Below, in pieces: positions 12,496-27,882 of a stretch of DNA of 64,000 nt. Position 1 is the first letter of the stretch, and every line of letters begins with the position of its first letter. Source of the DNA: Pelagibius sp. Alg239-R121 (GTDB lineage: Bacteria > Pseudomonadota > Alphaproteobacteria > Kiloniellales > Kiloniellaceae). Position numbers and translations under genes: made by a program. The DNA lies in contig NZ_CAMZOF010000002.1 in assembly GCF_947331435.1 (NCBI RefSeq), positions 496,001 through 560,000 of the forward strand. The letters run 5' to 3'. Under the pieces are notes generated by a model. That model did no database searches. It was not told the origin of the DNA and saw only the letters and a program-made list of their open reading frames with translations.

Positions 12496-13506
12496 ATGGC
12501 AGGCAAATCGGCGAACGGAGCACTCAGGGACAGTGACGCGAGTACGGCGACCCGTGCGGCCTGGCTGCATTTCGCCGGCGGCCTCACCCAGGCCGAGGTT
12601 GCCAAGCGTCTGGGACTGACCAGCCTCAAAGCCCACCGTCTGATTGCGCGCGCCAGCCGCGAAGGTCTGATCAAGGTCTATATCGACGGTGAGATTTCCG
12701 AATGCGTCCAACTGGAAGAACAGCTGAGTGCGCGCTACGGGCTGGAGTTCTGCCAGGTCGTCCCGGATCTGGATGAAGGAGAAAACGATAACAGTGCCCT
12801 GCCGCTGAAATCGCTCGGCATGGCCGGGGCGCAGTATCTCAAACTGGCCCTCGAACGTGACAAAGACCAGCTCATCGGCGTCGGTCATGGCCGGACGCTG
12901 GCTGCCTGTATCGATTATCTGCCGCGAACCTCTGCCGGAAAAACCCGCTTCGTTTCCCTGCTGGGCGGGCTGACCCGCAAGTTCGCGGCAAACCCCCACG
13001 ATGTGATCCACCGTCTCGCGGAACGCACCGGCGCCGAAGCCTATGTCATGCCTGTGCCGTTTTTTGCGAATTCGGTCGAAGACCGCTCGGTTCTGCTGAA
13101 TCAGCGCGGCATCAGCGACGTCGTCGATCTCGCCAAACAGGCCAACCTGCTGATCGTCGGCATCGGCACGGCCGAACCGGGCGCATCGCTGGTGGCGACG
13201 GGCATGATCGAACGGAAAGAGATCAATGACATCAAACGCAAGGGCGGGTGCGGCGAACTGCTTGGGCATTTCTTCGACCGCAGCGGTGCACCGGTCAAAA
13301 CCGATCTGTCGGACCGCACGCTCTCGCTCACACGCGACGACCTGCGGGACCGCAAATTGATTGCCGTCGCCGGGGGAAGCGAAAAAACCGATGCCATCCG
13401 CTCAATTCTGAAGAGCGGATTTTTAAAGGGCCTGATCACCAACGAGTTCACGGCAAATGTACTCGCAGGCTCGCCGCCGAAATCAGTTAAATCGGCGAAG
13501 GGATAG
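12496..13506 (+). CDS. SorC/DeoR-family sugar-binding transcriptional regulator (EryD-like)
   Basis: A 336-residue regulator with an N-terminal helix-turn-helix (about residues 15-60: GGLTQAEVAKRLGLTSLKAHRLIARA) and a C-terminal sugar-phosphate-binding domain (about 65-330; GVGHGRTLAACIDYLP, VSLLGGLTRK). The domain senses a phosphorylated sugar or polyol and alters DNA binding. The frame extends upstream to 12445, but that stretch overlaps candidate operator dyads and lacks a ribosome site, so ATG 12496 is preferred. It is the first gene before the transport and catabolic operon, the same position held by EryD in erythritol loci. The ligand is inferred only. Confidence 0.85.
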   Translation: MAGKSANGALRDSDASTATRAAWLHFAGGLTQAEVAKRLGLTSLKAHRLIARASREGLIKVYIDGEISECVQLEEQLSARYGLEFCQVVPDLDEGENDNSALPLKSLGMAGAQYLKLALERDKDQLIGVGHGRTLAACIDYLPRTSAGKTRFVSLLGGLTRKFAANPHDVIHRLAERTGAEAYVMPVPFFANSVEDRSVLLNQRGISDVVDLAKQANLLIVGIGTAEPGASLVATGMIERKEINDIKRKGGCGELLGHFFDRSGAPVKTDLSDRTLSLTRDDLRDRKLIAVAGGSEKTDAIRSILKSGFLKGLITNEFTANVLAGSPPKSVKSAKG

Positions 13507-13554
13507 CAGGTACCAGAGGCGAAAAAATCGCCCCACTCAAACGGAGGGAACGTC

Positions 13555-14991
13555 ATGTACAGTAGAGAACAAGATCTCTTTAAGTCTTACGCGGCCCAGA
13601 AAATGAGCCGCCGTGAGCTGATTGAAAAATCACTCAAGCTCGGCATTGCGGCCGGGACGGCAAATTTCCTGTTAAACAGCGCTTCGACCGCGGCCATGGC
13701 GGCCGATTTCGACTGGATGAAGCATAAGGGTAAATCGGTCAAACTGCTGTTGAACAAGCATCCCTACGCGGATGCCATGATTGCGAACATCGACAACTTC
13801 AAAGCCATGACCGGCGTCGACGTAACTTACGACATCTTTCCGGAAGACGTCTATTTCGACAAGGTCACCGCAGCGCTCTCGTCCAAGTCGAGCCAGTACG
13901 ACGCCTTCATGACCGGCGCCTATCAGACCTGGCAATACGGCCCGGCCGGCTGGATTGCCGACATGAACGAATACATCGGCGATCCTGAAAAAACGAACCC
14001 GAACTATAACTGGGACGATGTGTTGCCCGGCCTGCGTGCTTCGACCGCCTGGTCCGGCGTTCCCGGCGCCGAGCTCGGCGGTGCGGACTCGAAACAGTGG
14101 TGCATCCCCTGGGGCTTTGAGCTCAACAACGTCGCCTACAACCGCAAGATCTTCGACAAGCTGGGTCTCGCACCGCCGGAGAACATGGCCGACATGATGG
14201 AAGTCGCGGCCAAGATCACCAAGGATGCCGGCGGCCCCTACGGTATCGGTGTACGCGGTTCGCGCTCCTGGGCCACGATCCACCCGGGTTTCCTTTCCGC
14301 CTATACCAACTTCGGCGGCAAGGACCTGAAACAGGACGGCGGGAAACTGCGCGCGGCAATGGACTCTGCGGAATCCAAGGCCTTCACGGCGCAGTGGGTC
14401 AAGATGATCCAGGATTCGGGCCCCAAGGACTGGGCAACCTATACCTGGTATCAGGTCGGAACCGATCTGGGCGCAGGCGCATCCGGCATGATCTACGACG
14501 CCGACATCCTCGGCTACTTCATGAACGGCGGCGACAACAAGGAAGCCGGCAATCTGGCCTATGCCTCCTTCAAGGCAAACCCCGATGCGGCGACACCGAC
14601 GTCGAACGTCTGGATCTGGTCACTCGCCATGTCCAACTTCTCCAAGGAAAAGGACGCGGCCTGGTACTTCATGCAGTGGGCCTCGAGCGCAGATCACGGC
14701 CTGTTCGGCGCACGCAAGATGGATTTCGTCAATCCGGTCCGCGGTGCGGTCTGGAAGGATCAGGAGTTCCGGGACCGGATCGCTCAGAGCTATCCGGGCT
14801 ACATTGAGCAGTACGAAGCCTCGGCGCCGGACGCGAAGATTTACTTCACGCCGCAGCCGCTGTTCTCGACACTGACGACTGAATGGGCGGCCGGATTGCA
14901 AAAGATGGTCACCAAGGAAGTCCCTGTGGACGAGGGTCTCGATCAGCTGGCGGAAAGCGTCAATCGTCAGCTGAAATCGGCAGGCCTTTAA
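13555..14991 (+). CDS. ABC transporter sugar/polyol-binding protein
   Basis: A 478-residue periplasmic solute-binding protein of the MalE type. Start at 13555 is supported by GGAGGG seven bases upstream. The leader contains SRRELIEKSLKLG, a Tat-like twin-arginine motif, and a hydrophobic stretch ending near AMAADF. Typical cluster 1 features are visible: TAALSSKSSQYDAFMTGAY, IPWGFELNNVAYNRKIF and a tryptophan-rich C-terminal region. Located after the regulator and before two permeases, it defines substrate uptake for the operon. The substrate is unknown; the neighbouring EryA-like kinase points to a polyol such as a tetritol or pentitol. Confidence 0.86.
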   Translation: MYSREQDLFKSYAAQKMSRRELIEKSLKLGIAAGTANFLLNSASTAAMAADFDWMKHKGKSVKLLLNKHPYADAMIANIDNFKAMTGVDVTYDIFPEDVYFDKVTAALSSKSSQYDAFMTGAYQTWQYGPAGWIADMNEYIGDPEKTNPNYNWDDVLPGLRASTAWSGVPGAELGGADSKQWCIPWGFELNNVAYNRKIFDKLGLAPPENMADMMEVAAKITKDAGGPYGIGVRGSRSWATIHPGFLSAYTNFGGKDLKQDGGKLRAAMDSAESKAFTAQWVKMIQDSGPKDWATYTWYQVGTDLGAGASGMIYDADILGYFMNGGDNKEAGNLAYASFKANPDAATPTSNVWIWSLAMSNFSKEKDAAWYFMQWASSADHGLFGARKMDFVNPVRGAVWKDQEFRDRIAQSYPGYIEQYEASAPDAKIYFTPQPLFSTLTTEWAAGLQKMVTKEVPVDEGLDQLAESVNRQLKSAGL

Positions 14992-15008
14992 GGACTGACG
15001 GGCTAGGG

Positions 15009-15119
15009 AGCGCGGTGGATCTCGATTGGCCTCGATTGAGGACTGCCGCGCGCCAAAGGGCCTCCGGAGCGAAAACTCCGGAGCTCTGCGGGGCGGCCGT
15101 TCTCCCATGGCTGCCCCGC
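15009..15119 (+). repeat. Hairpin cluster between binding protein and permease genes
   Basis: Three dyads follow the binding-protein stop: GCGCGG with CCGCGC (15009-15014, 15046-15051); two copies of CTCCGGAG around a CGAAAA loop (15062-15069, 15076-15083); and an 11-bp stem GCGGGGCGGCC with GGCTGCCCCGC (15088-15098, 15109-15119, one G-T pair). There is no T run, so they probably stabilise the 5' message or slow read-through and keep binding protein in excess over the membrane parts, rather than end transcription. Confidence 0.7.
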
Positions 15120-15277: not shown

Positions 15278-16156
15278 GTGTATCGCCGCGCCCTACCCTA
15301 TATGCTGAGTCTGCCCGCTCTGCTTGTCTGCATCGGCATTCTCATTCCTTTTGGAACCGCGGTTTACTATTCGACCCAGCGCTACAATCTTTCCTTTCCG
15401 CAGGCGCGCGGTTTTATCGGTCTTGAAAACTACATCGATTTCTTCTCCGACTCTGCGTTCTGGAACACCATTGAGATCTCTCTGCTCTACACGTTTCTGA
15501 CCGTCGTGCTGGAGCTGTTGCTCGGCCTCGGTATCGCGCTTTTGCTGCGCACACCGGGGCGCTTCAACAACATGGTTTCGATCTTGCTGCTGCTGCCGTT
15601 GATGACGGCGCCGGCGATTGCGGCCTTGATGTGGAAGCTGATGACCAATCCGAATTTCGGCGTGCTCAGCTATCTGATCAGCCTGATCGGTTTCGACGAT
15701 TTCCGCTGGGCCTCCTCGCCCTCCTCGGCGCTCTTTACCGTCGTGCTGGTGGATATGTGGGTCTACACCCCTTTCATCATGATCCTGCTGCTGGCTGGCC
15801 TGCGCTCGCTGCCGCGTCAGCCCTTCGAGGCCGCCGAACTGGACGGCGTGCCGCGCTCCTTCGTCTTCTTCCGCATCACGCTTCCCATGCTGATGCCCTA
15901 CATCATCACGGCGACTCTCTTCCGCCTGCTTGATTCAATTCAGCAGTTCGACATCATCTATGCCATGACCCAAGGCGGTCCCGGCGACAAATTGATGGTG
16001 TTCCAGGTGCAGAGTTATCTGGAGTTCTTTCAATACACCAACGTCGGGCGTTCGGCCGCCCTGCTCATGGTGCTCTGGGCCATCACTTATTTCCTCTCAA
16101 ACCTCTTCGTCAAACACTGGCTGAAGCTGCGCGAACGCGCGCACGGCAACGCGTGA
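15278..16156 (+). CDS. ABC transporter permease, MalF-type
   Basis: A 292-residue inner-membrane protein that starts at GTG 15278 behind CGGAGA. About six hydrophobic segments are visible, and the cytoplasmic EAA loop reads QPFEAAELDGVPRSFVFFRITLP at about residues 180-202, the contact point with the ATPases. It belongs to the binding-protein-dependent sugar permeases and pairs with the next permease. The gap from the binding-protein gene is 286 bases and holds hairpins, but no separate regulator, so it is still considered one operon. Confidence 0.9.
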   Translation: MYRRALPYMLSLPALLVCIGILIPFGTAVYYSTQRYNLSFPQARGFIGLENYIDFFSDSAFWNTIEISLLYTFLTVVLELLLGLGIALLLRTPGRFNNMVSILLLLPLMTAPAIAALMWKLMTNPNFGVLSYLISLIGFDDFRWASSPSSALFTVVLVDMWVYTPFIMILLLAGLRSLPRQPFEAAELDGVPRSFVFFRITLPMLMPYIITATLFRLLDSIQQFDIIYAMTQGGPGDKLMVFQVQSYLEFFQYTNVGRSAALLMVLWAITYFLSNLFVKHWLKLRERAHGNA

Positions 16157-16169
16157 GGCCGCGACGAAT

Positions 16170-17027
16170 ATGAACCACACTTCAACAGCCGAACGCATCA
16201 TCCGGGGCCTCCTTCTGACCTTGGTTCTGCTGTTCTTCCTGTTCCCGATTTTCTGGATCTTCCTGATGTCGTTCCAGACCAACGAGGACATCCTGCGCAT
16301 TCCGCCCAGCCTGTTTTTCACGCCCACGCTTGAAAACTACGTGGCGCTGATCTCCGGGCGTCTGTCGACCGTGGCGGGCGATCTGGACATCGCCTTTATG
16401 CGGAACCTCTGGAATTCGGTGCTGCTGTCCAGCCTCTCGGTCGGTGTCGCACTGATCCTGGGCGTGCCGGCGGCCTACGCCTTCGCGCGCTTCAAATTCC
16501 GTCTAGGGGAGAACATTGCCTTTACGCTGCTGTCCTTCCGTTTCGCGCCGCCCTTGCTGGTGCTGCTGCCCCTGTCGCTCTACTTCAGCGAACTGGGCCT
16601 CAGCGACACCTACCTCGGTCTCGTATGGGTCTATCAGCTGATCGCGCTGCCGCTGATTCTCTGGATCGTACGCGGCTATTTCGAGGACATCAGTCCGGAT
16701 ATCGAAAACGCTTACCGGATCGACGGCCATTCCTGGGCCAAGACCTTCCGTAAGATTGCCATTCCGCTTGCACGGCCAGGCATCGCCGCCGCCAGCCTTC
16801 TGGCTTTCATCTTCTGCTGGAACAACTTCGTCTTCGCCCTGGTGCTGGCTTCCGCCGACAAGCAACCGGTGACGGTCGGCGCTCTGGCCTTCGTGACGGC
16901 ATCAGGCATTCAGTACGGTCAGGTGGCTGCCGCCATCGTGCTATCGGTTACACCAACCTTGTTGCTGGCGCTCTATGCCCAACGCTATCTGGTCGAGGGT
17001 CTCTCTCTCGGCGCTGTGAAGGGATAA
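16170..17027 (+). CDS. ABC transporter permease, MalG-type
   Basis: A 285-residue partner permease with six predicted membrane segments and the EAA-loop segment DIENAYRIDGHSWAKTFRKI (about residues 177-196). The N-terminal RGLLLTLVLLFFLFPIFWIF helix and the EDILRIPPSLFF segment after it are typical of MalG-like sugar permeases. It lies 13 bases after the first permease and four bases before the first ATPase, so all are co-translated. With the MalF-type partner it forms the channel of the polyol/sugar importer. Confidence 0.9.
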   Translation: MNHTSTAERIIRGLLLTLVLLFFLFPIFWIFLMSFQTNEDILRIPPSLFFTPTLENYVALISGRLSTVAGDLDIAFMRNLWNSVLLSSLSVGVALILGVPAAYAFARFKFRLGENIAFTLLSFRFAPPLLVLLPLSLYFSELGLSDTYLGLVWVYQLIALPLILWIVRGYFEDISPDIENAYRIDGHSWAKTFRKIAIPLARPGIAAASLLAFIFCWNNFVFALVLASADKQPVTVGALAFVTASGIQYGQVAAAIVLSVTPTLLLALYAQRYLVEGLSLGAVKG

Positions 17028-17031
17028 AGCG

Positions 17032-18159
17032 ATGACAAGCTTGGAGCTGAACGCCGTCAGCAAGTCGTTCAAGAACGACCAGGTTCTTTCCGGACTCTCC
17101 CTATCGGCAACGGAGGGGGAGACCGTCGTGGTTTTTGGGCCGTCCGGCACCGGCAAGACAGTTCTTTTGCGCTTGATATCAGGCATCTACGACCCCGACG
17201 ATGGCGACATCCGGCTCGACGGCAGTTCCGTCGTCGGCATCGCGCCCGAGCATCGCGGCATAGGCATGGCCTTTCAGAATTTCGCCCTCTATCCCCACAT
17301 GGAAGCGGCCGACAATATCGCCAGCCCCTTGGAAGCCCGCGGCGGGACGGCGGCGCAGATCATGGAGAAGGTGCGCGAGATCGCCACACTGCTGAAAATC
17401 GACCACGTCCTGAGTCATCGGCCCAAGGAACTCTCGAATGGCCAGAAGCAGCGAACCGCTTTGGCGCGCGCGCTGGTCGCCGGCCCGAAGATCCTGCTGC
17501 TGGACGATCCCTTGCGAAATGTCGATGCTAAGCTGCGTTTCGAGATGCGTCTGGAATTACCTCGCCTGCTCAGGGATTTTGGTTCGACCACGCTCTACGT
17601 CACACAGGACTATAAAGAAGCCATGGCGCTGGGCGACCGGATCGCAGTGTTGCTGAAGGGTGATTTCGCACAGGTCGCGACCCCTCAGGACATCTACAAC
17701 AATCCTGTAAATGTCGAGGTGGCCAAGCTGTTCGGGGATCCGACCATCAATCTGATCGAAACGCGCCTCACGGTGGCAGACGGGCGTGCGCAGGCCGACC
17801 TCGCTGGAACAACCGTGGAACTCGGCACAGGTTACGACCATGCGGATGGACGCGATATCGTTGTCGGCGTTCGGCCCGAGGCGATCTCGGTGTCGGAAAC
17901 GCCCCTCGAAGGCGCACTGCCGGTCGAATTAATCGCCGTCACGCCTCTCAACGAGCGTGTCGTGATGCTGTTGCATCTCGCAGACGGCACGGAATTCTTT
18001 GCCTCCTCGCCGGAAGATGGCGCGACCGGGACCCGCCGTCATGGACCGGCCTTCGCGCGTATCGCACCCGACGCCGTCCTCGTCTTCGACCGTGACAGCG
18101 GACAGCGCATCCACCCGCTGGACGCCGGGCCGCAAGTCTCTGGGCAGCAGACGCAATGA
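17032..18159 (+). CDS. ABC transporter ATPase with degenerate catalytic residues
   Basis: A 375-residue ATPase with C-terminal regulatory (TOBE) domain. Walker A is intact (GPSGTGKT, 36-43) and the Q-loop has Q82, but the signature is LSNGQ (134-138), the Walker B catalytic glutamate is Asp159 (LLLDDP), and the H-switch histidine is Gln192 (YVTQDY). These changes predict weak or absent hydrolysis at the site this subunit builds. The next gene encodes a second, different ATPase, so the pair probably forms a heterodimer with one good catalytic site. Overlaps that gene by four bases. Nucleotide-binding residues are seen directly; the activity is inferred. Confidence 0.88.
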   Translation: MTSLELNAVSKSFKNDQVLSGLSLSATEGETVVVFGPSGTGKTVLLRLISGIYDPDDGDIRLDGSSVVGIAPEHRGIGMAFQNFALYPHMEAADNIASPLEARGGTAAQIMEKVREIATLLKIDHVLSHRPKELSNGQKQRTALARALVAGPKILLLDDPLRNVDAKLRFEMRLELPRLLRDFGSTTLYVTQDYKEAMALGDRIAVLLKGDFAQVATPQDIYNNPVNVEVAKLFGDPTINLIETRLTVADGRAQADLAGTTVELGTGYDHADGRDIVVGVRPEAISVSETPLEGALPVELIAVTPLNERVVMLLHLADGTEFFASSPEDGATGTRRHGPAFARIAPDAVLVFDRDSGQRIHPLDAGPQVSGQQTQ

Positions 18160-19379
18160 GTATTGAAGCCGTGAAACCACCATCACCCGGGCTTGATACA
18201 GCCGGACAGGCACCGGTTATAACGGATGCGGGAAATACCTCCGCCCGGACCGCACTTCACCTGGATGCCGTCGACAAGTTCTACGGCGACCCCGCCAACC
18301 CGGCCGTGCATGCGGTAAAGAGCTTCTCCATGGAGGTCGCGGAAGGCGAAATCGTTGCGCTGTTGGGCTCATCCGGTTGCGGCAAGACCTCGACCCTCCG
18401 CATGATCGCCGGGTTTGAGACTGTGAGCCGGGGCGAGATCAAGCTGGCGGGACGCCGCATCGACGAACTCCGCCCCGCCAAGCGTAACGTCGCGATGGCT
18501 TTCGAGGGCTACTCGCTCTATCCGCCCCTGACCGTGCGGGACAATATCGCCTTCGCACTCAAAGCCGCGAAACTCGAACAGGGCGAAGTGGATCGAAAAG
18601 TCGACCATATCGCAGACCTGCTCGAAATCGAGACGATCCTGGGCAAATATCCCTCTTCGCTCTCCGGTGGCCAGCAGCAACGCGCCAGTCTCGCCCGCGC
18701 CCTGATTCGCAAAGCCGATCTCTATCTGCTCGACGAACCCATGTCTCAACTGGAACCGCAGCTTCGCTCGGTGTTGCGCGGCCGCATCAAGAGCTACCTG
18801 ATCGAACACGGCCTGACCTCGGTCTTCGTAACCCACGACCAGACCGAAGCAAATGCGCTCGCCGACCGAATTGCCGTGATGGAAGACGGTGTACTGCAGC
18901 AGATCGCCAGCCCCGCGGAACTGAAGGACCGGCCTGCCAACCTCTTTGTTGCGACCTTTATCGGCGAACCGCCCATGAATGTCTTCCCCGCCAGACTTGC
19001 CGACGATAACGGTCATTTGCATGTGGTGGTGGAAGGTGAAGGTGCCGCGGCCGGATTCACCCTGGATCTGGGCGAGGTTTCGCGGCCGGCCGGCAGCAGG
19101 CTAACAGGCGGCGCGGCGGTTCATCTCGGTGTGCGCCCGCACAGCGTTTCCCTGGGCAGAGGCGGCAACAAAGGCCTCCTGGTGTCAAATCAATGGCTCG
19201 GCGATCAGACCCATGTGGTCATTGAGGCTGCAGGCCAGACCATGGTTGCCGTCAGCTATGGCCGTGTGGATGAGCAGGTCGGCGCGGAAATCACCTTTTC
19301 CCTTTCGCCTCAGGCGATCCATCTTTTTGCCCAGGATGACGGCAGAGCTCTTCTCCACGGCACGGAGGCTGTCGGATGA
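18156..19379 (+). CDS. ABC transporter ATPase, catalytic partner with altered Q-loop
   Basis: A 407-residue ATPase with an extra N-terminal stretch of about 30 residues and a C-terminal TOBE domain. Walker A is GSSGCGKT (71-78), signature LSGGQQQR (169-176), Walker B LLDEP with the catalytic E194 and H-switch H227 are canonical. The Q-loop glutamine is replaced by Glu117 (AMAFEGYSLYP), and the D-loop reads SQLE rather than SNLD. It therefore carries the catalytic residues missing from the preceding ATPase. Both lie in one operon with two permeases, as in the heterodimeric glycerol importer of rhizobia. ATGA overlap with the kinase gene follows. Confidence 0.88.
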   Translation: MSIEAVKPPSPGLDTAGQAPVITDAGNTSARTALHLDAVDKFYGDPANPAVHAVKSFSMEVAEGEIVALLGSSGCGKTSTLRMIAGFETVSRGEIKLAGRRIDELRPAKRNVAMAFEGYSLYPPLTVRDNIAFALKAAKLEQGEVDRKVDHIADLLEIETILGKYPSSLSGGQQQRASLARALIRKADLYLLDEPMSQLEPQLRSVLRGRIKSYLIEHGLTSVFVTHDQTEANALADRIAVMEDGVLQQIASPAELKDRPANLFVATFIGEPPMNVFPARLADDNGHLHVVVEGEGAAAGFTLDLGEVSRPAGSRLTGGAAVHLGVRPHSVSLGRGGNKGLLVSNQWLGDQTHVVIEAAGQTMVAVSYGRVDEQVGAEITFSLSPQAIHLFAQDDGRALLHGTEAVG

Positions 19380-20941
19380 AAGACGTCCTGATCGGAATCG
19401 ACGCCGGTACATCAGTCATTAAGGCCATCGCCTTTTCGACCGGCGGCGAACAGCTTGCCGTTTATGCCTGCACAAACAGCTACGAGAACCTTCGAGACGG
19501 CGGCGTCGAGCAGGATATCGGCCGCACCTGGCGGGATGCGGCAAAGTCGATTTGCGGGTTGGCCGAACAACTGCCCGGTCTCGCGGAACGGACAGTGGGG
19601 GTCGCCGTGACCGGCCAGGGCGACGGCACCTGGCTGATCGACGCAGTGGGCGAACCGGTAGGACCTGCCTGGGTCTGGCTGGACGCCCGTGCCGCGGAGA
19701 TCGTCCACGAGATGCGGGCTTCGCCGGACGACCGTGCGCGTTTCGAGATCACCGGCACCGGCCTTGCCGCCTGCCAGCAAGGCCCGCAGCTTCAGTGGAT
19801 GAAGCGGCATCAACCGGAGGTTCTTGCCAAGGCCGCAACCGCCTTTCATTGCAAAGACTGGCTCTACTATAAGTTCTGCGGCGACCGGGTCACCGATCCG
19901 TCGGAAGGAACCTTTACCTACGGCGATTTTCGCAAGCGGAACTATTCAGACGACGTCGTCGCTTCCCTTGGCCTCATCGACCATATCCATCTTTTGCCGG
20001 AAATCATCGAAGGCACCAGTCAGCACGGCAGCCTGACCGCCGAAGCGGCAGGGGATACGGGACTGTTGGAAGGGACGCCGGTCGTGCTCGGGTATGTCGA
20101 CGTCATCTGCGCGGCGCTGGGGGCCGGCCTTTACGAACCGGGCGTCGATCTGGGATGCACCATTGTCGGTTCCACCGGCATGCACATGCGTTTCGTCAAA
20201 TCAGCGAACGAGGTTGTGCTGAACCCGCATAGCACCGGCTACACCATGCCCTTCCCGGTGCCTGGCAGCTATGCCCAGATGCAGTCGAATCTGGCGGGAA
20301 CCTTGAACATCGATTGGCTCCTGGATGTGGCGCTCGGCGTGCTTTCCAGCGAGGGTGTCGAGCGGTCCCGTGCAGACCTGTTGTCCAAAGCAGACGATTT
20401 GGTTGCCGCGGCGCAACCTGCCAACCTGCTTTATCAGCCTTATATTTCAGAAGCGGGCGAACGCGGTCCCTTCACCGACGCCACCGCAAGCGCGGCCTTT
20501 CTGGGCCTGTCGACCCGGCACGGCTATGGCGACTTCCTGCGCGCAACTTACGAAGGCCTCTCCTTCGCGGCCCGCGACTGCTACGGCGCCATGGGGCCCT
20601 TGCCCAATGAAGTGCGCCTGACCGGAGGTGCGGCGCGCAGCAGGCAGATCCGTCATATACTGAGCGCCGCCCTGAATTCAGGTGTCCGGACCAGCGGACG
20701 GGAAGAAGCCGGTGCCGCCGGCGTTGCCATGATGGCTGCCGTCTGCCTTGGCGTTTATCCGGATATGGCTGCCTGCGCCGCAAAGTGGGTCTCGCCTTAT
20801 CTCGGTGAAGTCGAGGACCCGGATCCGGATCTCGCCGAAATCTATCAAGCAACCTTCGCAGTCTACGAGGAAGCCCGGCGCAATCTGCCACCGCTCTGGC
20901 GGTCTCTGACGCAGAGGAATGGAGCCGACCATGGCCAGTGA
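19376..20941 (+). CDS. eryA: FGGY carbohydrate kinase, erythritol kinase (EryA)-like
   Basis: A 521-residue FGGY-family kinase that phosphorylates a polyol with ATP. It opens with IGIDAGTSVIKAIAF (phosphate loop) and contains VTGQGDGTWLID, WVWLDARAAEIV, CQQGPQL, HCKDWLYYKFCG, LGYVDVICAALGAG and GSTGMHM, which I recall as near-identical to Brucella-type erythritol kinase. The second ATPase half has LTGGAARSRQIR and GREEAGAAG. The start overlaps the ATPase gene by ATGA. The product would be an erythritol (or related tetritol/pentitol) phosphate, to be oxidised by the GlpD-like enzyme downstream. Substrate is inferred from homology by memory. Confidence 0.82.
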   Translation: MKDVLIGIDAGTSVIKAIAFSTGGEQLAVYACTNSYENLRDGGVEQDIGRTWRDAAKSICGLAEQLPGLAERTVGVAVTGQGDGTWLIDAVGEPVGPAWVWLDARAAEIVHEMRASPDDRARFEITGTGLAACQQGPQLQWMKRHQPEVLAKAATAFHCKDWLYYKFCGDRVTDPSEGTFTYGDFRKRNYSDDVVASLGLIDHIHLLPEIIEGTSQHGSLTAEAAGDTGLLEGTPVVLGYVDVICAALGAGLYEPGVDLGCTIVGSTGMHMRFVKSANEVVLNPHSTGYTMPFPVPGSYAQMQSNLAGTLNIDWLLDVALGVLSSEGVERSRADLLSKADDLVAAAQPANLLYQPYISEAGERGPFTDATASAAFLGLSTRHGYGDFLRATYEGLSFAARDCYGAMGPLPNEVRLTGGAARSRQIRHILSAALNSGVRTSGREEAGAAGVAMMAAVCLGVYPDMAACAAKWVSPYLGEVEDPDPDLAEIYQATFAVYEEARRNLPPLWRSLTQRNGADHGQ

Positions 20942-21971
20942 GATCACGATCATCGGCGATCGCTTTATGATGGCGGGGGCATTTAGCGATGCCATCGAAA
21001 AGGCCTGCGGCGCAGAGCACCAGATTCGAAGCCTGGAGTTTGCCTGGCCGGACGAACCCATGGAACACGGCTACGCCAAGCCCGGCATGGACGGCCTGAA
21101 GGAATACATGGGCGATCCGGACGAAGTGGTCGATTTTATCGGCGAATCCGAGATCTTCGTGACCCATCTCGCACCGCTGTCGGACGGAATGATGGCGCGC
21201 CTGCCAAATCTTAAGTTCGTGGCGGTTTCCCGTGGCGGCCCCGTCAACATCGACATGGACGCTGCCCGCAAACGTAACATCCGGGTGGTCAATGTCCCGG
21301 GGCGCAACGCCAGCGCTGTCGCCGAGTTCACCATCGGTGCCATTCTGGCGGAAACCCGCCTGATACGGATGGGCCACGAATCCCTGCGCAAGGGCGAGTG
21401 GCGCGGCGACCTCTACCGCGCGGACAGGACCGGTAGGGAGCTGAACGAAATGACCATCGGGGTCATCGGCTACGGCAACATCGGAACCCTCGTCGTGCCG
21501 CTTCTGCGCGCCTTCGGCAGCCGGGTCCTGGTCTCGGACCCCTACGTCCAGCTGTCGGCCGCCGATATGAAGGCCGGGGTCGAGCAGGTCAGCCTGGAGG
21601 AACTTCTGGAACAGTCCGATGTGGTCACGCTGCATGCACGTGTGACCCCTGAGACCACCAAGTTCATAAACGCGGAGGCCTTCGCCCGGATGAAGCCGGG
21701 CAGCCTCTTCGTCAACACGGCCCGCGGGCCGATGGTCGACTACGACGCGCTTTACGACGCCCTGACATCAGGTCACCTGGGTGGCGCCATGCTGGAAACC
21801 TTTGCAATAGAGCCGCCGCCGGCCGACTGGCCGCTGCTCCAGCTTCCGAATGTAACACTCACACCGCATATCGCCGGTGCCTCGGTCCGGACTGTGACCT
21901 ATGCGGCCGAACAGGCAGCCGACGAGGTCCGGCGGTTCCTGAACGGAAAGCCACCAAAGAATCCCTGTTAA
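20931..21971 (+). CDS. NAD-dependent 2-hydroxyacid dehydrogenase
   Basis: A 346-residue enzyme of the D-isomer-specific 2-hydroxyacid dehydrogenase family. ATG 20931 is preferred over the ATG at 20919 because GGAG precedes it; it overlaps the kinase gene by 11 bases. The Rossmann fold is seen in IGVIGYGNIGTLVVPLLRAF (about 178-197), with catalytic Arg in NTARGPMVDY, Glu in the AIEPPPADWPL region and His in PHIAGASVRT. Such enzymes reduce or oxidise 2-keto/2-hydroxy acids. Its role in a polyol operon is unclear; it could act on an acid formed from the sugar backbone. Confidence 0.85.
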   Translation: MASEITIIGDRFMMAGAFSDAIEKACGAEHQIRSLEFAWPDEPMEHGYAKPGMDGLKEYMGDPDEVVDFIGESEIFVTHLAPLSDGMMARLPNLKFVAVSRGGPVNIDMDAARKRNIRVVNVPGRNASAVAEFTIGAILAETRLIRMGHESLRKGEWRGDLYRADRTGRELNEMTIGVIGYGNIGTLVVPLLRAFGSRVLVSDPYVQLSAADMKAGVEQVSLEELLEQSDVVTLHARVTPETTKFINAEAFARMKPGSLFVNTARGPMVDYDALYDALTSGHLGGAMLETFAIEPPPADWPLLQLPNVTLTPHIAGASVRTVTYAAEQAADEVRRFLNGKPPKNPC

Positions 21972-22045: not shown

Positions 22046-22867
22046 ATGACGGAACGGGAAATACGTAAGGCAATCGTTGAGAATTGCCTGAAGATGAATT
22101 CGACAGGCCTCAATCAGGGTACCTCGGGCAACCTCAGCGCCCGCTACAAAGACGTGATGATCATCACCCCCAGCGGTATTGCCTATGAGGTTCTTAAGCC
22201 GTCGGATCTCGCCACCATGCCGATCGGCAAGAACTACGGTTCCTGGGAAGGTCCGCTCAAACCCTCGACCGAATGGCGCTTTCATCTCGACATCATGATC
22301 GATCGTCCCGACGTGGGCGGCATCGTTCATACTCACTCGACCTACGCCACGATCCTCTCCATCGCGGGCAAGGAAATCCCTGCTTGCCACTACATGATCG
22401 CGGCCTTCGGCGGCCCGACGATCCGCTGCGCCGACTACGCCACTTTCGGTACTGAGGAGCTTTCGGCCAATGCCCTGAAAGCCCTGGAAGACCGAACCGG
22501 CTGTATTCTCGCCAATCACGGCATGATCGCGACAGGCGCCAACGTTGCAAAGGCCATGTGGCTTGCCGTCGAACTGGAGACCATTGCCAAGCAGTATTAC
22601 CAGAGTCTTCTGATCGGCGGCCCTAACCTCTTGAGCAACGAAGAGATCGCCAACGTAAAGGAACGCTTCAAAGGCTACGGTCTCCAGGACAAAAAGCCTG
22701 CGAACAGCAGCCGCAAGACTAAGGCCGCCGCCAAGCCCCGCGCGAAAGCGCAAGCTAAACCGGGCGCGAAAGCGCGAGCTAAACCCAGCGCAAAAGCGCA
22801 AGTGAAACCTCGTGCGAAAATCCAGGCAAAACCCCGAACGAAACCCAAAGCAAAGAAACGCGCGTAA
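22046..22867 (+). CDS. Class II (FucA-type) aldolase with histone-H1-like C-terminal tail
   Basis: A 273-residue protein. ATG 22046 sits behind ACGGAGAGA. Residues 1-212 form a class II aldolase/adducin domain with E76, H95, H97 (HTHS) and H158 (NHGM), each exactly three positions after the catalytic Glu73 and zinc ligands His92, His94 and His155 of L-fuculose-phosphate aldolase. Residues 216-273 are a basic tail of Lys, Arg, Ala and Pro repeats (such as AKAQAKPGAKARAKP) with no acidic residue, like histone H1 or AlgP/Hc1 tails. The aldolase probably cleaves a ketose phosphate to dihydroxyacetone phosphate and an aldehyde. The tail is unusual for the family; its role is unknown. Confidence 0.88.
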   Translation: MTEREIRKAIVENCLKMNSTGLNQGTSGNLSARYKDVMIITPSGIAYEVLKPSDLATMPIGKNYGSWEGPLKPSTEWRFHLDIMIDRPDVGGIVHTHSTYATILSIAGKEIPACHYMIAAFGGPTIRCADYATFGTEELSANALKALEDRTGCILANHGMIATGANVAKAMWLAVELETIAKQYYQSLLIGGPNLLSNEEIANVKERFKGYGLQDKKPANSSRKTKAAAKPRAKAQAKPGAKARAKPSAKAQVKPRAKIQAKPRTKPKAKKRA

Positions 22868-22912
22868 CTTGAATCCGGGCCGGGACCGGCCCGCATCTGC
22901 AAAACCGGAACA

Positions 22913-24469
22913 ATGACACCGCCGCCCACCGCAACGAACACGCTGGAAAAGGACATTGGCAGCGAGCCTGGCATCGTCGATCTCTGCGTGATCGGCGGCG
23001 GCGTCAACGGGACCGGGATCGCCCGTGACGCAGCCGGCCGGGGGCTTTCGGTCGTACTCTGTGAGAAAGATGATTTAGGACAGGGGACCTCTTCGCGGTC
23101 CGGCAAACTCGTGCATGGCGGGTTACGGTATCTGGAATATTACGAGTTCCGTCTGGTACGCGAAGCGCTTATCGAGCGCGAGGTCCTGCTGGAGAGCGCC
23201 CCGCACATCATCTGGCCCCTGCGGTTTGTGCTGCCGCACAGTCCACAGGACAGGCCGGCCTGGCTGATCCGGATCGGCTTGTTTCTCTACGACCATCTGG
23301 GCGGCCGCAAGCGCCTGCCCGGCACGCGAACGCTTGACCTGCGCAGCGCACCTGAGGGAGCCGCAATTCAGGAGAACTACCGTAAGGCCTTCGAGTTTTC
23401 CGATTGCTGGGTTGATGATGCGCGTCTGGTTGTGCTCAATGCGTTGGATGCCTGCGAGCGCGGGGCAGAGATCCATACCCGGACGGCCTGCATTTCCGCG
23501 CGCCGTGAAGATGGTTTCTGGCGGGTCGAGCTGCGGCATGGCCGGACGGGTCAGACCCGGACCATAGCCGCGAAGACCCTGGTCAACGCCGCGGGCCCCT
23601 GGGTGCAGGAGGTTTTGAGCAAGGTCACCGGGTTCAATTCCTCGCGCGCTGTCCGCCTGGTCAAGGGCAGCCACCTGGTGGTGCCGAAATTCTGGGACGG
23701 CCCCCAGGCCTATCTGGTTCAGAACAGTGACAAGCGGGTGATCTTCATCAATCCCTACGAAAACGATCTCTGCTTAATCGGAACGACTGACACTCCCTAC
23801 AGCGGTAAGGCCGACGACGTCACTGTGGATGATAAAGAGGTCGACTATCTTCTCTCGGCGGTGAACCGCTATTTCCGGAAGCAGCTGAGCGTTGAAGACG
23901 TAATCCATCGCTTTTCCGGCGTGCGGCCGCTTTACGACGATGCTGCGGAGAACCCGAGCGCCGTCACCCGTGACTATGTCTTCGATCTCGACGCGAGTAA
24001 GGGGGCACCGCTGCTTTCGATCTTCGGCGGCAAAATCACCACCTACCGCAAACTCGCGGAACATGCGCTGCAAAAGCTTCAACCCTATTTTCCAGGCCTG
24101 GGGCCGGACTGGACCGCCTCCTCGGTCTTACCGGGCGGCGGCATCGAAAATGCCGACTACAGTGCTTTCCATGCAGCGGTCAAACAACGCTATTCCTGGC
24201 TGCCCGATAGTCTCGCTGATCACTATGGGCGCCTCTACGGCACCCGGTTGCACGACCTTCTCGGCCAATCGAATTCGCTGAGCGAACTGGGTATCCACTT
24301 CGGCGGAGATTTCTATGAAGCCGAAGCCCGCTATCTGATGGACAGAGAATGGGCCATGACAACCGAAGACATTCTGGAACGCCGCACAAAGCATGGGCTG
24401 CATCTGTCGAAAGAACAGCGGCAGAGCTTCGAGGCCTGGTGCTCAGGCGTAATCGCAAAGGCAGTATGA
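22913..24469 (+). CDS. glpD: GlpD-family FAD-dependent polyol-phosphate/glycerol-3-phosphate dehydrogenase
   Basis: A 518-residue flavoenzyme. The FAD site is CVIGGGVNGTGIARDAAGRG (about 25-44), followed by SSRSGKLVHGGLRYLE and, later, VRLVKGSHLVVPKF, GTTDTPYSG and GGKITTYRKLAE, the full set of GlpD motifs. It oxidises a polyol phosphate to a ketose phosphate at the membrane and passes electrons to quinone. In this operon the substrate may be the product of the EryA-like kinase (as for EryB), or glycerol 3-phosphate. The two cannot be told apart by sequence here. It is followed after one base by the second class II aldolase. Confidence 0.9.
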   Translation: MTPPPTATNTLEKDIGSEPGIVDLCVIGGGVNGTGIARDAAGRGLSVVLCEKDDLGQGTSSRSGKLVHGGLRYLEYYEFRLVREALIEREVLLESAPHIIWPLRFVLPHSPQDRPAWLIRIGLFLYDHLGGRKRLPGTRTLDLRSAPEGAAIQENYRKAFEFSDCWVDDARLVVLNALDACERGAEIHTRTACISARREDGFWRVELRHGRTGQTRTIAAKTLVNAAGPWVQEVLSKVTGFNSSRAVRLVKGSHLVVPKFWDGPQAYLVQNSDKRVIFINPYENDLCLIGTTDTPYSGKADDVTVDDKEVDYLLSAVNRYFRKQLSVEDVIHRFSGVRPLYDDAAENPSAVTRDYVFDLDASKGAPLLSIFGGKITTYRKLAEHALQKLQPYFPGLGPDWTASSVLPGGGIENADYSAFHAAVKQRYSWLPDSLADHYGRLYGTRLHDLLGQSNSLSELGIHFGGDFYEAEARYLMDREWAMTTEDILERRTKHGLHLSKEQRQSFEAWCSGVIAKAV

Positions 24470-24470
24470 C

Positions 24471-25526
24471 ATGAACCAGCAGGCAGACAGTCTCGACGAG
24501 CTTCGGGCTCTTCGCGCGCTCTCCGTACGTATCGGTAAGGACCCCGCCCTTGTGCAGGCAGCCGGCGGCAACACCTCGATCAAGCATGACGGCATACTCT
24601 GGATCAAAGCATCGGGCACTTGGTTGAGCCAGGCGCATGATCGGAATATCATGGTCCCCGTGCGCTTAAAGCCCCTGCAGTCGGCCCTTGCCGCCGGCGA
24701 CCCTGCAGCGGAAAAAGCCCAGAGCTTTGTGGTCAAAGACGCCAACCCGGAAGGCCTCCGGCCGTCGATCGAAACCACGCTGCATGCGGCCATGCCGCAG
24801 AAGGTGGTCATCCACGCCCACTGTGTGGAAACGATCGCCTGGTCGATCCGTCAGGACGGCGAAGCCGAGCTGCAGGACCGCATGAGTGCCTTCAATTGGG
24901 CCTGGATCCCCTATGTCCGTCCCGGCCTGCCGCTCTCACGCGCGATCGCGGAACGAACGGATCCGGACACCTCCGTCCTGGTTCTGGCCAATCACGGGCT
25001 TGTCGTTGCAGCTGATACGGTCGCTGAAGCCGAAGCATTGCTGAAGGATGTTTGCGACGCCCTCAGAGAAGCGGCACGGTCTCTGCCGGAAACTGACATT
25101 GACGCCTTGGAAGAGATCGCAAGGGATACGCCGTATCACCTGCCGCGCCACAGGGACACGCACGCCGTCGCGATCGACCCTCTGTCTCGTCGCGCTGCCC
25201 TTGGCGGTTCACTCTATCCGGATCACGTGATCTTTTTGGGAACCGGTTGCACGGCACTGAAATCCGGCGAGACTCTGCAGGCGCTGATCTCGGACCGGGA
25301 AGCCTCCGGCAACCTGGCACCGGCTATGCTGCTTATTCCAGGTGTCGGTGTACTGCTCCATGATTCGGTCTCCGACAGCGGCGAGGAACTGGCACGTTGT
25401 CTCGCGCATGTCACCAGCCGTATTCAGGAAGACAGCGAGATACGCTATTTGACAGCCGAACAGGATTACGAGCTCTTGAACTGGGATGCGGAAAAATACC
25501 GAAAGCAGTTGGACGTTGGTGCCTAG
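24471..25526 (+). CDS. Class II aldolase/adducin-domain protein
   Basis: A 351-residue protein. The aldolase domain spans about residues 10-210: QAAGGNTSIKHDGILWIKASGTWL, ETTLHAAMPQKVVIHAHCVE (metal-ligand HAH) and LANHGLVVA. The C-terminal 140 residues resemble the second part of the large RhaD/YuxG-type aldolases but lack a dehydrogenase domain. It probably acts on a phosphorylated ketose or keto acid with the GlpD-type enzyme and the tailed aldolase. It begins one base after the glpD-type stop, so the two are coupled. Two class II aldolases in one operon suggest either two substrates or a functional split. Confidence 0.8.
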   Translation: MNQQADSLDELRALRALSVRIGKDPALVQAAGGNTSIKHDGILWIKASGTWLSQAHDRNIMVPVRLKPLQSALAAGDPAAEKAQSFVVKDANPEGLRPSIETTLHAAMPQKVVIHAHCVETIAWSIRQDGEAELQDRMSAFNWAWIPYVRPGLPLSRAIAERTDPDTSVLVLANHGLVVAADTVAEAEALLKDVCDALREAARSLPETDIDALEEIARDTPYHLPRHRDTHAVAIDPLSRRAALGGSLYPDHVIFLGTGCTALKSGETLQALISDREASGNLAPAMLLIPGVGVLLHDSVSDSGEELARCLAHVTSRIQEDSEIRYLTAEQDYELLNWDAEKYRKQLDVGA

Positions 25527-25667
25527 AGTAGATCCGGGTTAGACGGAATCGCCTTAGGCGATCTGTCGTCCCGGTGAATCTACTCTAACCATATGATTTA
25601 GAGCGGATTCACATGTTTAGACGGAATCGCCTTAGGTGATCAGTCGTCCCGGTGAATCCACCTTAAC
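25525..25667. repeat. Two palindromic intergenic repeats (REP-like), direct tandem
   Basis: Two copies, 25525-25588 and 25600-25667, share a 40-base core (starting TTAGACGGAATCGCCTTAGG and ending GTCGTCCCGGTGAATC with few changes). Copy 1 also pairs AGAGTAGATCCGG at its 5' end with the complementary CCGG...ATCTACTCT at its 3' end, and the core has a GATCGCC/GGCGATC-type inner stem. This is the form of a genome-wide palindromic element. It lies directly after the aldolase stop and before the second kinase, and could end or stabilise transcripts. Confidence 0.8.
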
Positions 25668-25747
25668 TGTATGATCCGATCTAGAGCCTGATTTCGGCTT
25701 CAGCATCGCACTCTAAAAGTAAAAACAACGCAGGAAAGATACACGCA

Positions 25748-27043
25748 GTGATCGGCGGAGAGAAAGTTTCAGATAATTTGGCGCTTGGAATTGATGTCGG
25801 TACGACGGGTGTCAGAGCCGTGGCCATCGATGAATCAGGTACCGAGGTTGCCCGCGCAGACACGCCGATGGCGATCGCCGGACCGAACCCGCGCAGTCCG
25901 GCAGTCTGGTGGACCGCCACGACTAGAACGCTTCAAGCTTTGATGCATGAAGTGGATATGTCTCGCATCAAGGCCGTCGCCGTGGACGGCACCTCCGGAA
26001 CACTCTTGGCAATCGATGCCAACGGAATGCCGCTCGGCAACGCCCTGATGTACAACGATGTGGCCAGCACTCCGGACGCCATCGCCGATCTCGCGGCACA
26101 CGCGCCCAAGACGTCTGCCGCCCACGGCCCGACCTCCGGCCTGCTGAAAGTCATTCGATTGCAGGATACCGAGGGGACGTCGAAAGTTGTCCATCAGGCC
26201 GACTGGATTGCTGGCTGTCTCACGGGACGCTTCGATATCAGTGACGAGAATAATGCGCTGAAGACCGGATATGATCCCGTAGAACGCTGCTGGCCCGGTT
26301 GGCTTGAACAAACCGCTGTCAAATTACCACTGCTGCCGGACGTCGCTGAGCCCGGCAGCGTCATCGCCGAAATTAAATCGGATGTTGCCGCGCAGTTCGC
26401 GATTGCCCGCAATGCCGTGGTCGCGGCGGGCACGACGGACGGCTGCGCTTCGTTCCTGGCGACCGGTGCCGAAAAGCCCGGCGACGCCGTGACCGCCCTC
26501 GGCTCGACACTGGTGCTCAAAATGCTCTCGGATGAACCGCTTTTCGCGCCCGAGTACGGCCTCTACAGTCACCGTATCGGCGATCGCTGGCTCGCAGGCG
26601 GCGCCTCGAATTCCGGCGGAGCGGTTTTGGCGAAACACTTCACTCCCGAGCGCATCCAAGCGCTTTCCGCGGAGATCGATCCCGATAAGCTTCTGGACTT
26701 CGGCTACTATCCACTCACCAAGGCGGGCGAGCGCTTCCCGATCAATGATCCGGAATTACCGCCCCGTATGGATCCACGGCCTTTGAGTGACGGTCAGTAT
26801 TTGCAAGCGATCCTGGAAGGAATAGCCGATGTGGAGGCGCTCGGATATCAGCGCCTCAAAGAACTTGGCGCGCCGGATCTCAAGTTTCTTCGCACGGTAG
26901 GCGGCGGCGCGAAGAACGCAGCCTGGACGGCCATACGCCAAAGAAAGCTTTCCGTTCCCTTCGTGACGCCGGCTTCCCAGGACGCTGCCGCGGGAACGGC
27001 CCGGCTGGCCCTGTCCGGGGCGCATACTGCGGGCCTTATATGA
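25748..27043 (+). CDS. FGGY kinase, D-ribulokinase-like
   Basis: A 431-residue sugar kinase smaller than standard FGGY enzymes. Motifs LGIDVGTTGVRAVAIDESG, VAVDGTSGTLLAID, QADWIAGCLTG, NALKTGYDP, AGTTDGCASFLATGA and LGSTLVLKML closely match the cyanobacterial/plant D-ribulose kinase (SePSK) as I remember it, including HRIGDRWLAGGASNSGG and GGGAKNAAW. It probably makes ribulose 5-phosphate. The annotated GTG at 25748 is the most upstream start; a TTG at 25778 behind GGAGAGA is an alternative. ATGA overlap with the HAD gene. It is separated from the upstream operon by two palindromic repeats and may have its own promoter. Confidence 0.82.
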   Translation: MIGGEKVSDNLALGIDVGTTGVRAVAIDESGTEVARADTPMAIAGPNPRSPAVWWTATTRTLQALMHEVDMSRIKAVAVDGTSGTLLAIDANGMPLGNALMYNDVASTPDAIADLAAHAPKTSAAHGPTSGLLKVIRLQDTEGTSKVVHQADWIAGCLTGRFDISDENNALKTGYDPVERCWPGWLEQTAVKLPLLPDVAEPGSVIAEIKSDVAAQFAIARNAVVAAGTTDGCASFLATGAEKPGDAVTALGSTLVLKMLSDEPLFAPEYGLYSHRIGDRWLAGGASNSGGAVLAKHFTPERIQALSAEIDPDKLLDFGYYPLTKAGERFPINDPELPPRMDPRPLSDGQYLQAILEGIADVEALGYQRLKELGAPDLKFLRTVGGGAKNAAWTAIRQRKLSVPFVTPASQDAAAGTARLALSGAHTAGLI

Positions 27044-27882
27044 CCTCTTCCAAAACACTTGGCGGGCTGGAAGAAATTGCCGGGAACTACGATCTCTTTC
27101 TGGTCGATCAGTTTGGCGTTCTGCACGATGGGCATACGCCCTACGCCGGCGCAATCCGCGTTCTCGAAGAGTTGAAATCCTGCGGAAAGCAAATCGTCCT
27201 GCTTTCCAACTCGGGCAAACGCTCGGCACCAAATGCGGAGCGCTTGAGCCGCTTGGGGTTTACGGAAGATCTTTACCACCTGCTGGTCACCTCAGGCGAA
27301 GTTGCCTGGCATCAACTCTCCTCCAACACTGCAACGCTGGAAAAACGGCGCTGTCTTCTGCTGTCGCGAGGCGGCGACCGGTCCGCGGTTGAGGGCTTGA
27401 ATCTGCAGTTGGTTGAAGACGGTACCGAGGCTGACATCGTCTTGATTTCCGGCAGCGAAGGCAGCCAGATCGGATTGGAAGTCTATGCCGAACGGCTGCG
27501 GCCCGCAGCCCAACGGGGCGTTGCTTGCCTCTGCACCAATCCCGACAAATTGATGATTACACCGGCTGGCCTGGATTTTGGCGCAGGTCGCATCGCCGAG
27601 CTCTATGAGTCACTCGGCGGTTCTGTACAGTGGATCGGCAAGCCCTGGTCCGCCATCTATCGCTTCGCCATGGAGCGTAGCGGTAATCCGGCCCCTGAAC
27701 GCGTGATCGGTATAGGCGACAGCGTCGAACACGACATTGCAGGCGCCGGCGGCATCGGCGCCGCAAGCGTTCTGATAAAAGCGGGGATCCTTGCCGATAC
27801 CAACAACAGGGATCTCTCGGAACTTTTCGAAAAGCACGGGGCGACGCCCGACTTCCTGCTTCAATCCTTTGTTTGGAACTGA
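27040..27882 (+). CDS. HAD-IIA family phosphatase (TIGR01459-like)
   Basis: A 280-residue haloacid-dehalogenase hydrolase of the IIA group. It has motif I DLFLVDQFGVLHDG (about residues 18-31), motif II LLSNSGKR, and motif IV VIGIGDSVEHDIAGAGG. This group hydrolyses sugar phosphates or phosphoglycolate-like by-products. It overlaps the ribulokinase-like gene and could remove dead-end phosphoesters of the polyol pathway. The substrate is unknown. It is the last gene of the plus-strand cluster and converges with an EamA exporter. Confidence 0.82.
   Translation: MTSSKTLGGLEEIAGNYDLFLVDQFGVLHDGHTPYAGAIRVLEELKSCGKQIVLLSNSGKRSAPNAERLSRLGFTEDLYHLLVTSGEVAWHQLSSNTATLEKRRCLLLSRGGDRSAVEGLNLQLVEDGTEADIVLISGSEGSQIGLEVYAERLRPAAQRGVACLCTNPDKLMITPAGLDFGAGRIAELYESLGGSVQWIGKPWSAIYRFAMERSGNPAPERVIGIGDSVEHDIAGAGGIGAASVLIKAGILADTNNRDLSELFEKHGATPDFLLQSFVWN

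Follow-up and report, generated by a model that had tools for sequence, protein, structure and literature searches.

Which polyols are used by a locus that encodes the kinase and the dehydrogenase of erythritol catabolism, together with two class II aldolases, a second kinase and a phosphatase, when the epimerase EryC is not found? The question is raised by a stretch of 64,000 nucleotides from Pelagibius sp. Alg239-R121 (assembly GCF_947331435.1, contig NZ_CAMZOF010000002.1, positions 496,001 to 560,000), hereafter called the window, in which inspection of the open reading frames (ORFs) revealed 13 intact genes, all on the + strand, at positions 12496-27882. The initial annotation of this DNA named a regulator, an EryA-like kinase, a GlpD/EryB-like dehydrogenase, two aldolases, a 2-hydroxyacid dehydrogenase, a second kinase and a HAD phosphatase, and all of these are present, intact and on the + strand. 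It was right to describe a polyol catabolic locus of the EryA/EryB type without EryC, as judged by protein families, gene order and searches for EryC. The variant of erythritol-type catabolism that it proposed is not borne out: the locus fits a class known since 2013, for which adonitol (ribitol) and L-arabitol were given as substrates. It is probably an operon for the uptake and catabolism of polyols that belongs to the Sinorhizobium mpt-ery-rbt-lal family and represents its form without eryC and tpiB, with ribitol and L-arabitol as the most likely substrates.

The locus and its counterpart in Sinorhizobium

At the level of sequence, the gene content, the gene order and the family membership of the products are plain. 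The order is that of the Sinorhizobium locus mptABCDE-eryA-rbtA-fucA-eryB-lalA-rbtB-rbtC-eryC-eryR-tpiB-rpiB, represented by S. medicae USDA1037 and S. meliloti Ak57, from the transporter (in Ak57 from the regulator) to the HAD phosphatase, and the identity per gene is 52-81% (RbtC taken from S. medicae). Families were assigned to 11 of the 13 products by hmmscan against Pfam and NCBIfam; both permeases (15278-17027) were recognized by eye and by their relatives in EryA loci, with mostly 73-97% identity and 55% in one case.

The first gene encodes an eryD-like SorC-type regulator (12496-13506; PF04198, E 1.7e-69; 69% identical to the regulator of the Ak57 pSymB locus). It is followed by the MptA-like substrate-binding protein of an ATP-binding cassette (ABC) transporter (13555-14991; PF01547, SBP_bac_1; 67% identical to Ak57 and 69% to its S. 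medicae counterpart, as far as the retrieved sequence covers it), two permeases (15278-16156 and 16170-17027; 77 and 81% to S. medicae, to which the identities that follow also refer) and two UgpC/MalK-like ATPases (17032-18159, 52%; 18156-19379, 61%). The EryA-type FGGY polyol kinase (19376-20941; PF00370/PF02782) is 57% identical to the product of the gene in the EryA position and 53-55% to kinases of eryABC operons (Rhizobium, Thalassospira, Paracoccus plasmids). Next come the 2-hydroxyacid dehydrogenase, RbtA by position (20919-21971; PF02826; 73%), the FucA-type class II aldolase (22046-22867; E 4.4e-59 to E. coli FucA) and the EryB/GlpD-type polyol-phosphate dehydrogenase, a flavin adenine dinucleotide (FAD) enzyme (22913-24469; NF009906, 834 bits; 67%). 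The last three genes encode a class II aldolase-fold enzyme, LalA by position (24471-25526; PF00596; 53%), a short FGGY kinase, RbtB by position (25766-27043; 57%), and an HAD-IIA phosphatase, RbtC by position (27040-27882; PF13344/PF13242; 54%). By the starts used, four neighboring gene pairs overlap by 4 to 23 bases, the RbtB and RbtC genes by 4. Gaps of 286 bases 3' of the binding-protein gene and of 236 to 239 bases, depending on the start, 5' of the RbtB kinase interrupt the array.

Three congeneric genomes (L015-L017) carry the full gene set in identical order, and more distant loci keep a core of transporter, EryA, 2-hydroxyacid dehydrogenase and EryB with a varying number of the other genes. 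As the order is kept in the three same-genus genomes and in Sinorhizobium, the arrangement is not due to chance; the locus is real, conserved and of an already known kind. The names LalA, RbtB and RbtC were given to the genes at 24471, 25766 and 27040 because lalA-rbtB-rbtC is treated as one suboperon that also occurs apart in Mesorhizobium (PMC3599248), and because the triple stands without the other enzymes tested in 34 of 80 loci. These 80 are the best of at least 509 confirmed relatives; their flanks extend no further than 10 kb, and contig ends truncate several of them. Absences among them are upper limits because automatic gene picking overlooked some genes whose ORFs were over-extended, such as FucA in L152. 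Given this assignment, the 2-hydroxyacid dehydrogenase would be RbtA. In Ak57 pSymB the HAD phosphatase gene is in two pieces (L027:19062-20023), 49 and 57% identical, due to a frameshift or a sequencing error.

In S. meliloti, the use of erythritol, adonitol and L-arabitol involves the MptABCDE transporter and EryA, that of the two pentitols adonitol and L-arabitol also lalA-rbtABC, and fucA is reported not to be needed for any of the three (PMC3599248). Geddes et al. (2013) divided such loci into three classes, of which class 3 combines LalA-RbtABC with the Mpt transporter, is without EryC, EryR and TpiB, and was assigned to adonitol and L-arabitol; its examples are Bradyrhizobium BTAi1/ORS278, Acidiphilium and Verminephrobacter, and the arrangement of lalA-rbtBC varies among them (PMC3599248). 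The window locus resembles this class in having LalA, RbtABC and the Mpt transporter, with EryC and TpiB not found. The class 3 thresholds, set against S. meliloti proteins, are at least 56% for MptA, 44% for EryD, 46% for EryA, 50% for RbtA, 65% for EryB, 49% for LalA, 51% for RbtB and 40% for RbtC. Strain 1021 is represented here by S. medicae USDA1037 and S. meliloti Ak57 (for EryD by Ak57 alone, for RbtC by S. medicae alone, and for MptA by a partial S. medicae sequence beside Ak57), and the respective values, 67-69, 69, 57-58, 73, 67-69, 53, 56-57 and 54%, all exceed these thresholds. A later paper gives the Mpt substrates as erythritol, L-arabitol and adonitol/ribitol (PMC10433430).

The comparatively low identity to the Sinorhizobium EryA (57-58%) and LalA (53%) might mean that the transporter and EryA have drifted to a different substrate that has this end in common, for instance a hexitol or a deoxy- or branched polyol. 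This is improbable, as the binding protein (67-69%), the permeases (77-81%) and RbtA (73%) are better kept.

Several non-coding features accompany the genes. A 13-base inverted repeat, 92% complementary, lies directly 5' of the regulator gene (12453-12483) and is a candidate operator; a guessed palindromic operator pattern gave 5 matches against 2.34 expected, which is uninformative. The 239-base gap before the RbtB kinase (25527-25765) contains inverted repeats (25574-25666) and may harbor an internal promoter or a repeat element, possibly a small dispersed one: the genome contains 4 exact copies of the 15-base arm GTGAATCCGCTCTAA, a reversed control 0. Further upstream (8102-11275), four ORFs resembling pqqB, pqqC, pqqD and pqqE were recognized by eye.

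EryC and the use of erythritol

EryC was found at E ≤ 1e-20 in none of 61 genomes of the order, the genome of Alg239-R121 included; these genomes, which are mutually related, form the order sample used below. A re-test at E ≤ 1e-10 was negative in all 13 genomes searched, with five of five control records positive at E ≤ 4e-150. The Sinorhizobium locus continues with EryC, EryR, TpiB and RpiB, whereas none of these adjoin the window locus. In the whole genome, the single triose-phosphate isomerase match is 37% identical to TpiB, and two RpiB homologues (44-45%) are located away from the locus. For class 3, the absence of EryC, TpiB and EryR is set at 68, 69 and 61% identity or more; the EryC and TpiB results agree with this description. 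EryR was found in none of the same-genus loci L015-L017, in a search that covered the fetched loci and not the Alg239-R121 genome itself. What the initial annotation said of the locus, namely that neither EryC nor the isomerases that accompany it are found there, holds genome-wide as well, and a search for EryC/EryH homologues encoded elsewhere, which the initial annotation had named as a way to overturn its reading, left that reading standing.

The window locus is not an ery operon of the Brucella type, in which EryC, TpiB/EryH and EryI are encoded with EryA and EryB and of which EryA, B, C, H and I have all been characterized in vitro (PMC10190533). It shares the EryA- and EryB-type enzymes and the SorC regulator with the eryABCD operons of Brucella and Rhizobium leguminosarum, but is without EryC, TpiB (EryH) and EryI, has a different transporter and carries LalA, RbtABC and FucA in addition.

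Since EryC is not found in the genome, erythritol might be degraded by a shorter route in which EryA, EryB and FucA take the place of EryC-EryH-EryI and yield dihydroxyacetone phosphate (DHAP) and formaldehyde. FucA and RhaD of E. coli run the reverse reaction to D-erythrulose-1-phosphate, the epimer acted on by EryC (PMC10733421), and the literature mentions a previous proposal that S. meliloti uses cleavage. However, S. meliloti does not need its FucA for erythritol, formaldehyde is toxic, and LalA, RbtB and RbtC would have no role, so that such a route is very unlikely.

Two other candidates were rejected. For the apiose, tetronate and sulfo-sugar pathways, the scan of 11 of the 13 proteins revealed neither an isomerase nor a transcarboxylase nor a DUF1537 kinase. 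A natural erythrulose-phosphate cycle that assimilates formaldehyde would require EryC and isomerases, which were not found at the locus.

Stereochemistry of the front end

The substrate of EryC in the erythritol pathway is D-erythrulose-1-phosphate (PMC10733421), and this step fixes the stereochemistry of EryA and EryB. Among the pentitols, a stereochemical comparison finds the matching end in ribitol and L-arabitol only, in agreement with the pentitols used via the locus in S. meliloti; erythritol, adonitol and L-arabitol are described as identical over three carbons (PMC3599248). The reactions assigned to the enzymes here and below are predicted ones. EryA would phosphorylate the end at which the C2 and C3 hydroxyls are arranged as in erythritol (right and right in the Fischer projection with the phosphate on top), and EryB would oxidize C2 to give D-ribulose-1-phosphate from ribitol and L-xylulose-1-phosphate from L-arabitol.

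FucA and LalA

In an alignment with E. coli FucA (1fua), the FucA-type aldolase retains the catalytic Glu, the His ligands and the Tyr residues. The 3' part of its gene (22690-22867) encodes a Lys/Ala/Pro-rich C-terminal tail of roughly 55-60 residues, which is also present in the three same-genus genomes and is shorter or absent in the other FucA sequences listed.

LalA is expected to act on L-xylulose-1-phosphate, which it would either convert to D-ribulose-1-phosphate by epimerization at C4 or cleave to DHAP and glycolaldehyde. Its Glu101, His115, His117 and His175 are invariant in 29 sequences. Aldolases have Glu where the L-ribulose-5-phosphate 4-epimerase AraD has Asp, and no AraD model is among the 17 families listed for LalA. 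Of the NCBIfam models, those that score best describe bifunctional aldolase/dehydrogenases of the rhamnulose-1-phosphate type, and every one of these matches is far below the cut-off. A predicted structure (predicted local distance difference test score, pLDDT, 86.8; predicted template modeling score, pTM, 0.87) has the class II aldolase fold and matches best 3m4r (Z 24.1, 190 residues aligned, root-mean-square deviation 2.3), with lower scores for FucA 1fua (Z 18.7, 174, 2.7) and RhaD 2v9e (Z 16.8, 185, 3.4). The fold and the residues are common to the whole class II aldolase superfamily, and the comparison, with no AraD entry among the matches listed, does not separate an aldolase from an epimerase. 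The invariant Glu101 favors an aldolase; the linkage to RbtB and RbtC favors a 4-epimerase.

In E. coli, the carbon of D-arabinose is cleaved by FucA at D-ribulose-1-phosphate, and L-xylulose-1-phosphate is processed with RhaB/RhaD (PMC6443609, a review). These routes resemble the window locus in their ketose-1-phosphate chemistry and in the FucA family; entry at the window locus is by a polyol kinase and an FAD dehydrogenase, not by an isomerase and a ketose kinase. By analogy, the 3R ketose-1-phosphates made by EryA and EryB could be split to DHAP and glycolaldehyde by two stereochemically complementary aldolases, D-ribulose-1-phosphate by FucA and L-xylulose-1-phosphate by a RhaD-type LalA, with RbtB and RbtC salvaging leaked sugar. 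The intact catalytic residues of FucA and the aldolase set of Glu and His in LalA make this a possible reading, and the kinase-dehydrogenase-aldolase route to DHAP and an aldehyde put forward in the initial annotation is chemically possible. It is nevertheless doubtful. FucA is reported as dispensable in S. meliloti and was detected in just 19 of 41 EryA loci (absences again being upper limits), and the linkage of lalA to rbtB and rbtC would be left without explanation. In the reading preferred here, in which LalA may be either a 4-epimerase or an aldolase, FucA would provide a side exit to DHAP and glycolaldehyde, or to DHAP and formaldehyde if erythritol is used.

RbtB and RbtC

The second kinase had been called ribulokinase-like. 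It is an FGGY kinase, but it matches L-ribulokinase models weakly and is closest, among solved structures, to SePSK of Synechococcus and AtXK-1 of Arabidopsis (5htr/5htn, E about 1e-94 over nearly the whole sequence). D-ribulose is phosphorylated in vitro by SePSK but hardly by AtXK-1; Asp8, Thr11 and Asp221 of SePSK are needed for activity, and Ser72, Asp221 and Ser222 contact D-ribulose (PMC4880283). By our reading of a two-residue numbering offset, RbtB keeps the equivalents of Asp8, Thr11, Ser72 and Asp221, with Gly in place of Ser222. It resembles SePSK and AtXK-1 in the alignment and differs in its operon context and, from SePSK, in this Gly.

RbtC would remove the C1 phosphate of D-ribulose-1-phosphate as a predicted D-ribulose-1-phosphate phosphatase, and RbtB, as a predicted D-ribulose 5-kinase, would phosphorylate C5 to give D-ribulose-5-phosphate, which enters the pentose phosphate pathway. 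Such a phosphate shift by RbtC and then RbtB appears to be the simplest reading. A ribulose-5-phosphate product fits the position of RbtB beside an RpiB homologue in five genomes (G050, G052, G054, G055 and G056). Growth roles are reported for lalA, rbtB and rbtC; a description of their reactions was not found in the open-access literature searched, which leaves aside the primary 2012 genetic paper, and a literature search aimed at a polyol route with a class II aldolase and an FGGY kinase found none.

Distribution of the lalA-rbtB-rbtC genes

In the order sample, LalA is present in 14 genomes (5 of 28 genera), RbtB in 13 (4 of 28 genera), EryA in 16 and EryC in none. All 13 RbtB genomes have LalA; in the fourteenth LalA genome (G007), LalA is close to a contig end. 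The hypergeometric value for co-occurrence, 2e-12, ignores the relatedness of the 61 genomes and is not a probability. Three EryA genomes are without LalA and RbtB at the thresholds used. Two of them (G026 and G013) have EryA, RbtA, FucA and EryB together, as cleavage by FucA would predict, and in the third (G053) the contig ends just after EryA. EryA and EryB thus come with one or the other possible consumer of ketose-1-phosphate, LalA/RbtB or FucA, wherever the context is visible. Genome-level counts of FucA were not used because homologues at E ≤ 1e-50 occur in 47 of the 61 genomes.

Among the 80 LalA loci, 71 have both RbtB and RbtC. Of the nine others, one (L090) is cut off by the end of its contig, 3' of LalA and RbtB, and the remaining eight are ery loci from Mesorhizobium or strains like it; for four of these, the triple is found in a second locus of the same strain within the 80 (L088/L131, L095/L111, L097/L128 and L099/L107). 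The 34 loci in which the triple stands without the other tested enzymes include 29 titled Mesorhizobium. One of the 34, L108, is itself cut by the flank and continues into an Mpt-type transporter, and is probably not a lone triple.

Four loci were inspected closely. The Aminobacter triple (L030) is surrounded by genes annotated for rhamnose. Next to the triple of L120, also in a rhamnose-type context, are a DeoR regulator, an FGGY_C_2 kinase and an RbsA-like transporter; L102 has the same kind of regulator and transporter next to it, and L136 has an FGGY_C_2 kinase nearby. For the rhamnose-type kinase of L120, Pfam gave a match and NCBIfam none. Rhamnulokinase makes a ketose-1-phosphate.

The triple was also seen in metagenome-assembled contigs titled Prosthecobacter and Verrucomicrobia (L086 and L129), which suggests transfer or mis-binning.

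Points against the proposed scheme

The following points weigh against the assignment and the scheme described above. The names LalA, RbtA, RbtB and RbtC rest on gene order and exclusion and not on sequences of strain 1021. One passage of PMC10433430 gives D-arabitol rather than L-arabitol as an Mpt substrate, although three other passages of that paper disagree with it. RbtA, the constant companion of EryA (41 of 41 EryA loci), has no role in the scheme, which moreover costs two phosphorylations per pentitol. The Glu101 of LalA is aldolase-like and speaks against an epimerase. RbtB is equally close to AtXK-1, which has little activity on D-ribulose, and has replaced the Ser222 of SePSK. RbtC by itself proves nothing because HAD homologues at E ≤ 1e-20 occur in 60 of the 61 genomes, so that its co-occurrence is uninformative. 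Finally, no ketose kinase or polyol-phosphate dehydrogenase is present among the neighbors tested near the triple in the Verrucomicrobia-labeled loci (three in L086, two in L129).

A second polyol locus and a possible shared hub

Genomes of the order contain a second polyol locus, which encodes its own transporter, a glycerol-1-phosphate-dehydrogenase-like enzyme (PF13685) and an FGGY kinase that shares about 28% identity with EryA. In Alg239-R121 this locus (L161; G000:C11:10233-20000) encodes a transporter, an SDR, the FGGY kinase (64% identical to that of G052), the glycerol-1-phosphate-dehydrogenase-like enzyme, a GpsA-like protein and an RpiB homologue. The dehydrogenase gene occurs in 21 of the 61 genomes, including all 13 with RbtB; the locus itself was viewed in six of the 13 (G000, G003, G004, G005, G052 and G055).

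The position of LalA and RbtB relative to the two loci varies. Both are inside the EryA locus in G000, G036-G038 and G059. In G003 and G004 both belong to the second locus, which immediately adjoins the EryA locus; G005, whose contigs are broken there, to all appearances has this arrangement too. They are split in G050, G052, G054, G055 and G056, with RbtB within 4 kb of the second dehydrogenase and LalA with EryA (in G056 with a piece of EryB on a short contig). In G003 and G004 (L022, L025, L026, L156 and L157), the FGGY kinase, the glycerol-1-phosphate-dehydrogenase-like enzyme, FucA and LalA-RbtB-RbtC lie beside the EryA locus, and G005 is similar, with LalA and RbtB at contig breaks.

The presence of LalA and RbtB in either locus, or divided between them, suggests a shared downstream hub. 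Tentatively, LalA as the 4-epimerase, RbtC as the ketose-1-phosphate phosphatase and RbtB as the D-ribulose 5-kinase might drain 3R pentulose-1-phosphates from two stereochemically opposite front ends, in either or both loci. The first front end would be EryA with EryB, a dehydrogenase of the glycerol-3-phosphate type, for ribitol and L-arabitol, and the second the FGGY kinase with the glycerol-1-phosphate-dehydrogenase-like enzyme, for D-arabitol and xylitol. A shared hub is less readily reconciled with the eight of the 21 genomes that have the second dehydrogenase without RbtB (in one of them, G019, the match is weak, 29% identity); these make the second front end independent of RbtB. The stereochemistry of the second dehydrogenase is a guess, as it scores 121-145 bits against NF002022, far below the cut-off of 413 bits.

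The family name of the second dehydrogenase suggests the opposite stereochemistry, and in that case D-arabitol and xylitol would be led to the same two pentulose-1-phosphates as L-arabitol and ribitol. What appears to be new is the mechanism proposed for lalA-rbtB-rbtC and the link to the second locus. The locus of Pelagibius itself moves from an odd erythritol pathway to a recognized pentitol locus with named candidate substrates.

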